Source: Candidatus Saelkia tenebricola (GTDB lineage Bacteria; Omnitrophota; Gorgyraeia; Kaelpiales; Kaelpiaceae). Taken from it: 37,915 nt of DNA. The first letter of the stretch is position 1, and every line of letters begins with the position of its first letter. Below the pieces are notes generated by a model, which had not been told where the DNA came from, did not search any database, and saw nothing but the letters and a program-made list of their open reading frames with translations. Shown here piece by piece: positions 33,070 through 37,389 of this stretch. The position numbers were made by a program, and so were the translations under genes. The stretch lies in the NCBI GenBank assembly GCA_030765145.1, contig JAVCDA010000084.1, positions 1 to 37,915 on the forward strand. Direction: 5' to 3'.

Positions 33070-33089
33070 TTCTTATTCTTAACAAAACA

Positions 33090-33161
33090 GCCCGCGAGAG
33101 GATTTGAACCCCCGACCTAGGCATTACGAATGCCTTGCTCTACCAACTGAGCTACACGGGC
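33090..33161 (-). tRNA. tRNA-Thr (anticodon CGU)
   Basis: A 72-base cloverleaf on the minus strand. Acceptor GCCCGTG pairs with CGCGGGC (one G-U); D arm GCTC/GAGC; anticodon stem AGGCA/TGCCT with loop TTCGTAA, anticodon CGT at 33126-33128; T arm GGGGG/CCTCT with loop TTCAAAT. No CCA is encoded. It reads ACG codons. It stands between the core genes and the accessory island, though its 3' end faces away from the island. Confidence 0.95.
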
Positions 33162-33740: not shown

Positions 33741-33975
33741 AAAATAAAAAATGCCGAGACCCAGAATCCCTCCCCCACATTTTGTAACTGATTATATTAT
33801 CATAGGGTTTGAACATCTTCGACCTCCTTTTGTGACATTAGCGTGACGTTGGTCTTTTACCTTAGGAATAAAACTCGCTCTAAAATACTCATATCTAATA
33901 ATATTTTCGGGCGGATTATTGTATGTTTCCTCCATCACTTGTTTACTACTCCATCCGCCTATTTCTTGTTTCGTC
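33741..33975. repeat. Long direct repeat, left copy
   Basis: Aligns without gaps to 37681-37915 with 18 mismatches (217/235 identical). It covers the end of the integrase gene and about 108 bases after it, starting AAAATAAAAAATGCCGAGAC. Most differences are transitions. Confidence 0.95.
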
Positions 33976-34494: not shown

Positions 34495-36927
34495 TTAATG
34501 ATAAATGGGGCTATTACCTTTGTTACTGATATCGATGGCTATATAATTATAAGCAATGTCTCCTTCTCTGAAAGAATATCTCATAGGATAGATACCTACA
34601 CCTCTACTGGTCGGCCTTAAAATTATTGGCATATTTGTAGAGAGGGTTGTACTTACAGGAAAGTCTGTTGCTGCAAGCCCTGCTATACCCATATCTCTTA
34701 ATACACCTATAAAATGTGCTGTTAATCCGCCTCTATCGCATATTACACCTGCAGCCTTTGTTAGATTGTAGATATTTATCATCCTGGTATCAGGAGTACT
34801 ATTTATAATAAATCTACCGCTGGCATCTATTTCACCTCTATTATACTGAGTATATTGAGTTACCAGTACAGGTCCTTGCGAGAACATCTCTCCATTCCAA
34901 TTACTAGCTGTCATCAATGGTTCTCTGTCTACCGGAAGTCCTCGCCAACTATCTTTAGCAGTCAATATATAATACATTTTCATCCTTCTGCTCTCTGTTT
35001 TACGTGCCGTTACGATGATATCATGGGTTTGGTTATAATCAATAACGCTTAGTACTATAAGCCCGTCAGCTTCAGAGGCTATATCCTGCGATACCTTTTC
35101 TAATTGCCATGGTTTTGGAACTTCACTCAATAAATAATTATTGGCGATATCTTGTATAGACCGAATTGTCTCTTCATCGCTATAGAATAGTTCAGGTTTA
35201 TCTACCTGTAATACCTCTTTTAGTTGATCGACTAAAGCCTCTATCTGCCTTAAACAGGATAGGGCAATATTGGTATCTTCTACATGCGCACGTAGAAAAC
35301 CAAGAGTTGGGAATGTAGATGTTCTTCTATCAACAATGCTCTGGTAGATCTCTTGGAAAGCCTGGAATTTTGCATTTACAAACTCTACGTAAGGTGTACT
35401 TGGAAGACTACCATCTTTCGGTTCTCCCCTTAAGGAATCTTTAATCTCAGTTATCGCTGCTGTTAAATAGTTTATCTCATATAGTAAGATCTCTGCTTCT
35501 GTAAGGCTTAGATCCCTTAATACCAGCTGTCCGCTTGAGATATCTATCGTTGGTCCGTAAGTACGCTGGGGATCTATATGCATAAGGGTTAGATTGTCCA
35601 GATAAGATTGGTCATCTGCAGGAAGCCAGAAACGGTGCGATATGTAACGGTCTAAGATGAGTGATGTAAGGGAGGCGTTTATAGCCGATACAAGTCTTTC
35701 ATAAGTATAAGGGGTTATGCCCTGCATCTCTCCTGTTGCTTGATTGAAGCTAATGCTACTGTCTGAAAAGGTTATCATAATATTTTTAGCAAAGCTCGAT
35801 AATACTCTATCAAAAGCCATGGTCTCTATTCTTGTATTTAAACTTATCTCTGGGTTATTTATTATCTGATGTAGCTTTTGTCTAATTTCGACTGCTGTTG
35901 TAGTGCCTTCTAAGCTTCTGAAATCGGTATAAATCGACTTTAGTATTTCATCAAACGGAAATTCTATCTCATCTTCAACTTGCGATCTCCAGTAATTGCA
36001 GCAGTGCTCCAATTGCCCTGTATTACCTACATTATAGGGTCTCTGTAATAGATTTAGCATTATTTCTGTCTCGTTCCCTCTCCAATCGTTTTCTTCAGGT
36101 AGGCTACTTACATCGGGTAAATAATCTGTTTCTACTATGCGTATATGGAAGTCCATCTCTCTTAGCTGTTCTATTGTAGCTTGGGCCTCTGGTCCGGTTC
36201 CGGGGTTAAATATAGTTATCCCCCGCGGAACAAAACAGTTGTCGTCTTCTAACCTTCTAAACTCTTCTATTGCTTCAGCAACACTGACTAATCGTGATAG
36301 ATATGTAACCCCGTGCTTTTGGTCTAAAGCTCCACGCTCATCTACATATTGAAACTCTGCTAATCCATTTGCAATTAAAGCTTCATATCTGGACTTAAAT
36401 CTATCAACATCTATTTTTGCAGGAAATAATTTACATAAGGACACAACCAGATAGCGTGTAAAATAATCAGAACCTTCGTTTCTCTGGTCAAGGTTCAATA
36501 TAAACTCTTGGAATGAATTCTCTATCTCCCAGAGTTGGACTATCTTATCTATGTTATTATATGCTGTCTCTAGGTCAACAGCTATGGAAGGAGTTACACC
36601 TGTTCTTATATCGGTAATTATAGATGTTAAAAACGCATACAATATAGCTGGTTGCTCTTGGTATAGTTGTTCGATGTTTGCAGCTACATATTCAAGGCTG
36701 GGTATTATCTCATCCCAGGATTGCCAGAGATGATTAATCAAAGCTGATGATATCTGTTCATCAGTTAGACCTGATTTTAAAAGAGTCTCTGTATTTAAGG
36801 TTTTTTCTTTTGATCTGCGAAGGGTTGGGTTATCTATTTCTAGGATATTGATATTAGAAGATGTAAAACATAAAACAGATAGCAATATAGAGATAACAAT
36901 TTTATTAAATATATTTCTAGTTATCAA
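34495..36927 (-). CDS. 810-aa exported protein with C-terminal phosphohistidine (PEP-utiliser swivel) domain
   Basis: An N-terminal hydrophobic segment (residues about 8-24, NKIVISILLSVLCFTSS) acts as a signal peptide or anchor. Residues about 45-230 are helical with no known family. Residues 236-270 hold ITIFNPGTGPEA and HIRIVETDY, which resembles motif I/II of a class I methyltransferase or another Rossmann fold. Residues about 690-780 align in order with the mobile domain of PEP-utilising enzymes: a P-D-x-R-M turn, AAGVICDRGGLTAH (His738 at the phospho-acceptor position), then VLRDMGIAGLA and RGVGIYP. The usual ATP-grasp and TIM-barrel partner domains are missing. Start is TTG at 36927, fixed by GGGAGG 8 bases upstream. 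GC is clearly higher than the core genes. Confidence 0.8.
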   Translation of the reverse strand: MITRNIFNKIVISILLSVLCFTSSNINILEIDNPTLRRSKEKTLNTETLLKSGLTDEQISSALINHLWQSWDEIIPSLEYVAANIEQLYQEQPAILYAFLTSIITDIRTGVTPSIAVDLETAYNNIDKIVQLWEIENSFQEFILNLDQRNEGSDYFTRYLVVSLCKLFPAKIDVDRFKSRYEALIANGLAEFQYVDERGALDQKHGVTYLSRLVSVAEAIEEFRRLEDDNCFVPRGITIFNPGTGPEAQATIEQLREMDFHIRIVETDYLPDVSSLPEENDWRGNETEIMLNLLQRPYNVGNTGQLEHCCNYWRSQVEDEIEFPFDEILKSIYTDFRSLEGTTTAVEIRQKLHQIINNPEISLNTRIETMAFDRVLSSFAKNIMITFSDSSISFNQATGEMQGITPYTYERLVSAINASLTSLILDRYISHRFWLPADDQSYLDNLTLMHIDPQRTYGPTIDISSGQLVLRDLSLTEAEILLYEINYLTAAITEIKDSLRGEPKDGSLPSTPYVEFVNAKFQAFQEIYQSIVDRRTSTFPTLGFLRAHVEDTNIALSCLRQIEALVDQLKEVLQVDKPELFYSDEETIRSIQDIANNYLLSEVPKPWQLEKVSQDIASEADGLIVLSVIDYNQTHDIIVTARKTESRRMKMYYILTAKDSWRGLPVDREPLMTASNWNGEMFSQGPVLVTQYTQYNRGEIDASGRFIINSTPDTRMINIYNLTKAAGVICDRGGLTAHFIGVLRDMGIAGLAATDFPVSTTLSTNMPIILRPTSRGVGIYPMRYSFREGDIAYNYIAIDISNKGNSPIYH

Positions 36928-36930
36928 TTT

Positions 36931-37389
36931 TTGCCTCCCAGTGTAGTTATACCGTATATTTATTTAGAATACAAATCAGTTTTTCTAGAATTTACAGTAG
37001 AACAACCCAAAATGAATCCTTTCGAAAAAACGGTAGAACCTATTTTAGGAAAGGTTGTATTTGTTAAAAAAGGAATTTACGGTAGTGAAAATATGTATTT
37101 ACGTGGAACAGTGAAAAATATTACCGATAAACCGTATAAGAATGTGATTGTAGCGTGGACTTTTTGGAATGCAAACAATGAATTGTTTAGTGGATAGAGC
37201 AGTGGAGTCGAAGGAGAAACTAGCTCCGTCTTTATAGATTCTATTGAATACCTAGATAGTAAATGCGAAGCAAATTTTTCAATAGCTGTTAAAACGTATA
37301 GTGGATTAGGGTCAAGATTTGAATCGAAAGTTAGGAGTGCATATGGGACTAGGCGATACGAGATATTCATTTATCTCTTAAAAGACTAA
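36931..37389 (+). pseudogene. FxLYD-domain protein gene with in-frame TAG
   Basis: The frame reads through VVFVKKGIYGSENMYLRG and TVKNITDKPYKNVIVAW to a TAG at 37195-37197, then continues in the same frame as SSGVEGETSSVFIDSIEY, NFSIAVKTYSGLGSRF and ends at TAA 37387-37389. Together both halves make the FxLYD beta-sandwich pattern (G-x-VKN-s-d...V-x-fwna...pG-e...F-i). There is no convincing start: 36931 is a TTG without ribosome site and the ATG at 37012 is internal. The 5' end is probably lost at the junction with the 810-aa gene, whose promoter lies in this stretch. Confidence 0.65.
36946..36974 (-). promoter_or_regulatory. Promoter of the 810-aa gene
   Basis: Minus strand TTGTAT (36969-36974), 17-base spacer, TATAAC (36946-36951), then the GGGAGG ribosome site and the TTG start at 36927. 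Confidence 0.6.

Follow-up and report, generated by a model that had tools for sequence, protein, structure and literature searches.

The window, which is the whole stretch of 37,915 nucleotides that was analysed, carries a reverse-strand gene for a protein of 810 residues with a TTG start and a strong ribosome-binding site (GGGAGG, 6-nt spacing) (Table 1). A 235-bp direct repeat flanks the gene, with a copy on each side. One copy overlaps the remnant of a tyrosine recombinase (HDLRHTFAS), with the tRNA-Thr gene about 0.6 kb beyond it, and the contig ends inside the other. The repeat copies, the recombinase remnant and the nearby tRNA suggest that the gene sits in an integrated island.

Table 1. 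Positions in the window of the gene, of its parts and of the flanking elements
Feature	Position	Strand	Basis
tRNA-Thr(CGT), closest tRNA flanking the island-like stretch on one side	33089..33161	-	
235-bp direct repeat flanking the gene, copy 1 (integrase remnant)	33741..33975	.	
Whole gene, 810 aa, TTG start	34495..36927	-	Homologue loci L007, L008/L009
Residues 685-810, divergent PEP-utiliser swivel (phosphohistidine) domain	34498..34875	-	Profile, hhalign, shuffle and model evidence
Residues 787-790, REGD, which matches the EGD turn of PPDK-type swivels	34558..34569	-	Invariant in 3/3; aligned with KEGD/EGD of other swivels
His738 codon, phospho-carrier position (GGLTAH)	34714..34716	-	Kept in 3/3 homologues
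Residues 624-657, predicted three-stranded beta meander ahead of the swivel domain	34957..35058	-	Low-confidence model
Residues 45-600, predicted mostly helical, without known family	35128..36795	-	Pfam and PDB searches; model pLDDT <65
Residues 241-248, NPGTGPEA, in an insertion seen only in the window protein	36184..36207	-	Homologue alignment
Residues 36-41, LRRSKE, RR[VSTAI][KQHR] motif downstream of the hydrophobic segment	36805..36822	-	Common to 28 proteins, RR enriched
Residues 1-28, basic start and hydrophobic segment (signal sequence or signal anchor)	36844..36927	-	Hydropathy; helix 2-26 in weak model
Ribosome-binding site GGGAGG, 6 nt upstream of TTG	36934..36939	-	Read from sequence
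235-bp repeat copy 2, 92% identical, at contig end	37681..37915	.	

Swivel domains are the moving phosphate arms of cytoplasmic PEP enzymes. Judged by profile and alignment evidence, the C-terminal part of the protein (residues ~685-810) is a divergent domain of this PEP-utiliser type, in agreement with an earlier note that had recognised there the mobile domain of PEP synthase, PPDK and EI. PF00391 was the only Pfam match with E below 0.1 in the protein (residues 718-753, E = 0.0013), and its single-protein score of 18.7 bits falls below the curated cut-off of 23.1 bits. In a whole-genome search the score with neighbours was 23.3 bits, just above this cut-off, and the domain was matched by all three members of the family. 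A profile of the three C-termini retrieved from the PDB, as its top matches, swivel-bearing chains of PPDK, PEP synthase, pyruvate kinase and EI (E from 0.0007 to 0.03). Comparison with seven PEPS/PPDK/EI swivels by hhalign gave a probability of 96%, and the alignment with the swivel of the genome's own PPDK scored 5.4 standard deviations above 1000 shuffles, none of which reached the real score. A full-length AlphaFold model built on a two-row alignment (pLDDT 38) left the C-terminus unresolved and showed no swivel, which made a fold search meaningless. A model of residues 676-810 guided by an alignment with 28 swivel homologues from viral contigs (pLDDT 57) put His738 close to where a helix begins, the place it has in known swivels. 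The best PDB match of this guided model, the phosphoryl-carrier domain of PPDK (probability 0.97, E = 0.02), does not count as independent evidence, since swivels were part of the alignment itself. The single-sequence score below the cut-off and the low-confidence models would fit a chance resemblance of GGLTAH in a protein without any swivel domain, but this reading is strongly disfavoured, to the point of being extremely improbable, by the PDB profile, which finds swivel enzymes first, and by the hhalign and shuffling results. In the IMG/VR viral contigs (L160-L238), many proteins of ~570-890 residues carry a PPDK-type swivel domain and form a phage family.

The partner domains were missing from the protein: neither ATP-grasp (PPDK_N) nor PEP barrel (PEP-utilizers_C) was matched in it by Pfam and PDB searches, which bears out the orphan state of the swivel, and no whole-protein relative was found in the PDB. 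The long helical region was considered as a degenerate ATP-grasp. This was rejected, since hhalign against an ATP-grasp+swivel protein of exported type from genome G003 of the same family paired only the swivel end, with negligible probability. The segment NPGTGPEA in the middle of the protein, previously called Rossmann-like, did not hold up. It falls within a 24-column gap of both homologues, had no family match in the Pfam search of the protein and is modelled there with pLDDT <50, so that a SAM-methyltransferase or Rossmann glycine loop at this position was dropped.

Close relatives of the protein were confined to the same Omnitrophota family, of which five genomes were searched (G000, its own genome, and G001 to G004). 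Homologues with 29-36% identity were present in G002 (full, 773 residues) and G004 (split over two contigs), and none was found in G001 and G003. No further homologue appeared among 384 sampled genomes of the phylum, where the weak matches were a chance match to ClpB and genuine PEP synthases. A wider search of genome contigs returned nothing with the single protein and, with the alignment, only the contig of G004 itself. The homologue of G004 (L051 1-3417, G004:C94) is followed, as judged by eye, by a gene for a TpsB/FhaC-like outer-membrane transporter and by a large exported-type partner.

Conservation was assessed on these three homologous proteins (window, G002 and G004), which are ~30% identical. 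All three keep T736, A737, H738, G727-V-I, V742-L-R and REGD 787-790. Within the C-terminal third (residues 600-810), conservation is highest around the His loop: 10 of the 18 positions of block 727-744 are invariant, against 24 of 173 elsewhere in this third (Fisher test; P = 1.4e-4). The GG-x-T-x-H pattern suggested earlier is kept in its T-x-H part by all three proteins, but its GG is found in only two of them, since G002 reads RGSGTAH. The canonical His loop of swivels is T[SCT]H[AT], a form partly drawn from the sequences compared here, while the three proteins read TAH[FL]. These data also bear on the possibility that the gene is a decaying or purely structural leftover, with a swivel devoid of function, in an island between integrase remnants. 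Its position between two repeat copies next to a tRNA, its narrow distribution and a 90-bp stop-containing fragment in G002 resembling the swivel end would agree with such decay. We consider this very unlikely, given a full-length ORF free of stops in two genera at 29-36% identity, the block-like conservation around His738 and the strong ribosome-binding site. The G002 fragment (G002:C18:217-306) resembles the C-terminal end of the swivel protein and is perhaps a pseudogene remnant.

At the other end, the protein has a single N-terminal hydrophobic segment (mean hydropathy of 1.93 from residue 10), flanked by basic residues on both sides and followed ~10 residues later by LRRSKE. Many proteins of the same family share this arrangement, i.e., a hydrophobic segment and then [ACLST]RR[VSTAI][KQHR]. 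Among 103 proteins with a single N-terminal hydrophobic segment from loci of this Omnitrophota family, which were partly chosen as relatives of exported-type enzymes, RR occurred 31 times at distances of 10-39 residues, counted from where the segment starts, versus 13 times over 40-199 residues (~13-fold enrichment). We selected 28 motif proteins by requiring V/S/T/A/I after RR. The next position was K/Q/H/R in 25 of them, even though the selection ignored it. In mixed controls, other Omnitrophota families and viral contigs each yielded 2 matches. The homologues carry LRRTK (G004) and SRRTL (G002), the latter without K/Q/H/R. In our survey of the protein's own genome, which covered the searched families and sampled stretches, 20 contig stretches chosen regardless of content contained one cluster of motif proteins (L081) and single ones (L072 and L084). 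The N-termini of L243 and L244, from other Omnitrophota families, show LRP or LRT where the family of the window has LRR.

These features make it probable that the protein leaves the cytoplasm, and we infer from its N-terminus that it would be exported by Sec and located in the envelope. The absence of a clean Ala-x-Ala site means that it could be a membrane anchor, in either orientation. The earlier note had proposed an exported or membrane-anchored protein. Its export-like start stands, and a bulk kept in the cytoplasm and anchored at the membrane appears less likely, since several sister proteins have a signal-peptidase-like Ala site immediately before RR (SEA|RRVK, YA|RRIKE), which would place the motif outside. 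Were the bulk cytoplasmic, His738 could be phosphorylated by the cytoplasmic EI or PPDK, which would make the protein an arm of the PTS or dikinase pathways tethered to the membrane. The genome has a PPDK and two EI genes, and the basic residues on both sides of the hydrophobic segment would suit this topology, but the sister proteins and the basic region before the hydrophobic stretch, which favours an inside N-terminus, make it quite improbable. The two PTS enzyme I genes (G000:C65, L003, and G000:C74, L004) are highly similar, each with a similar 256-aa ORF upstream, reflecting either duplication or strain mixture in the assembly.

The motif N-terminus is also found on proteins with domains of central carbon enzymes. 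Contig C30 of G000 encodes a PFK and a GAPDH of this type, with a methyltransferase-like protein alongside; G002 has an aldolase+PFK fusion and a GAPDH; G003 has a class II aldolase and an FBPase (glpX); and G004 has a 6-phosphogluconate dehydrogenase. One cluster of G003 combines a class III FBPase, NUDIX, DUF218 and an ATP-grasp+swivel protein with the motif N-terminus. The loci for exported or anchored PFK, GAPDH, aldolase, FBPase and 6PGDH are L069 7368-14801 (G000:C30), L070 330-3440 (G003:C43), L152 10481-13107 (G002:C26), L153 (G003:C14), L155 1-546 (G004:C146) and L245 964-2901 (G003:C34). The exported-type GAPDHs keep SCTTN, TIH and DNE[WF]GY, with the Cys and His retained, and the exported-type PFKs keep GGGD, GG[ND]D, K-S-[IM]-D-x-D and RG-x-x-P. 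The swivel gene of G002 is the next one downstream of the exported-type aldolase-PFK gene, on the same strand and ~110 bp away. A complete exported glycolysis is not supported: the PGK frames of the family were all of normal cytoplasmic length, no exported-length copy being found, and exported-type GAPDH occurred only in G000 and G002 among 59 genomes of the class.

Other Omnitrophota families encode giants with starts resembling signal peptides and with domains of PPDK/PEPS, of transketolase+transaldolase+PFK, of PGM+PFK+PGI, or of PPDK+PEPCK. They include L239 (3221 aa), L240 (3714 aa), L243 (>3000 aa), L044-L047 and L052, some with whole PEP-synthase-like domain sets. Large exported proteins are typical of the phylum, and its giant ORFs have been described as having few annotated domains, mainly of adhesion types (Seymour et al. 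2023, PMC10066038). Several of the giants examined here carry PPDK, PEPCK, PFK, transketolase or PGI, central-carbon domains that do not figure in the passages of that account cited here. The literature that we searched did not describe exported central-carbon enzymes in Omnitrophota, an absence that is no proof of novelty. The protein of the window seems to be part of a wider, apparently undescribed group of exported look-alikes of central-sugar-metabolism enzymes in this phylum.

The domain can be compared with several known systems. Like the PF00391 swivels of PPDK, PEP synthase and PTS enzyme I, with which it shares domain homology, it has T-x-H at the phospho-carrier position and the EGD turn. 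Unlike these enzymes, the protein lacks ATP-grasp and PEP barrel, reads TAH[FL] in the loop and has an export-like N-terminus. The DhaM subunit of PTS-dependent dihydroxyacetone kinase has an EI-type swivel without PEP barrel, which is phosphorylated in trans. DhaM is cytoplasmic and carries EIIA and HPr domains, whereas the Pfam search found no such domains in the protein of the window. The swivel of rifampin phosphotransferase (RPH) is C-terminal. It lies, as here, behind a large other region, and RPH chains were among the best fold matches of the guided model. RPH consists of an ATP-grasp, a substrate and a swivel domain (PMC4844700). In contrast to this cytoplasmic enzyme, the protein has no detected ATP-grasp, and no homology was found for its helical region. 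The extra C-terminal swivel domain (ECTS) of pyruvate kinases such as those of G. stearothermophilus and S. aureus (PDB 2e28 and 3t05) is also a swivel-type domain without an ATP-grasp of its own, matched here by profile and fold, with 2e28 among the matches of the three-C-termini profile. It differs in being fused to pyruvate kinase and cytoplasmic. The role of the ECTS is still unsettled in the literature (PMC12428139), and it offers a precedent for a swivel domain without a settled role.

The main rival to a repurposed binding domain is phosphotransfer in trans, in which the swivel would be a working phosphocarrier: an exported ATP-grasp or PEP-barrel enzyme would phosphorylate His738, and the phosphate would pass to a substrate bound either by the helical region or by the exported PFK/aldolase neighbour. 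The invariance of T-x-H and REGD in all three proteins could equally mean that phosphotransfer is retained, and the conserved block is centred on His. Possible donors of exported type are seen in the ATP-grasp+swivel protein of G003 and in the PPDK giants of other Omnitrophota families. Yet G003 lacks the orphan swivel gene, and no exported ATP-grasp was found in G000 and G002, the two best-assembled carriers of it, so that the data lend no support to an exported ATP-grasp as an obligate partner. The search of G000 returned no PPDK_N, which is partly an assembly effect because the PPDK is cut there by a contig end, and the PPDK_N frames listed for G002 have the length usual for the enzyme. As the loop also departs from the canonical form and neither ATP nor PEP is expected outside the cytoplasm, we regard phosphotransfer in trans as rather unlikely.

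Considering the computed domain homology, the invariant His738, the missing partner domains, the shared N-terminal motif and the G002 linkage to the aldolase-PFK fusion, we favour a reading that has, in our estimate, about an even chance of being right: an exported envelope protein, one of a lineage-specific set of exported enzymes, whose swivel would be repurposed for binding a phospho-ligand or a partner and would not run a full dikinase cycle. The protein would leave by Sec for the Omnitrophota cell envelope and begin with its hydrophobic signal or anchor and the RR[S/T]-type motif. These would be followed by ~550 mostly helical residues and then a diverged swivel domain cut loose from its usual ATP-grasp and PEP-barrel domains. 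Its companions would be the exported PFK, aldolase, FBPase, GAPDH, 6PGDH and ATP-grasp+swivel proteins, and the His738 loop would be kept as a putative site that binds either a phosphorylated ligand or one of these enzymes as its partner.

A conserved stand-alone swivel that appears exported would represent a novel role for this fold. More importantly, it leads to an apparently undescribed group of exported central-carbon paralogues, of which some have kept their active-site residues intact; the phylum that encodes them is regarded as host-dependent or predatory. A bolder and unlikely proposal is that Omnitrophota run or tap sugar-phosphate metabolism outside the cytoplasm. A dedicated export route marked by RR (or LR) would deliver catalytically intact glycolysis and pentose-phosphate paralogues, together with the orphan swivel protein, to the periplasm, the cell surface or a prey cell, and the swivel protein would handle phospho-intermediates there. 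If true, glycolytic chemistry, or scaffolds made of glycolytic enzymes, would be at work within the envelope or where the cell meets its host.

The L081 cluster (G000:C20, 372-8598 and 14214-16886) encodes about eight exported-type proteins whose mature start is mostly ARR[VIA]K/Q and which mostly belong to no known family.
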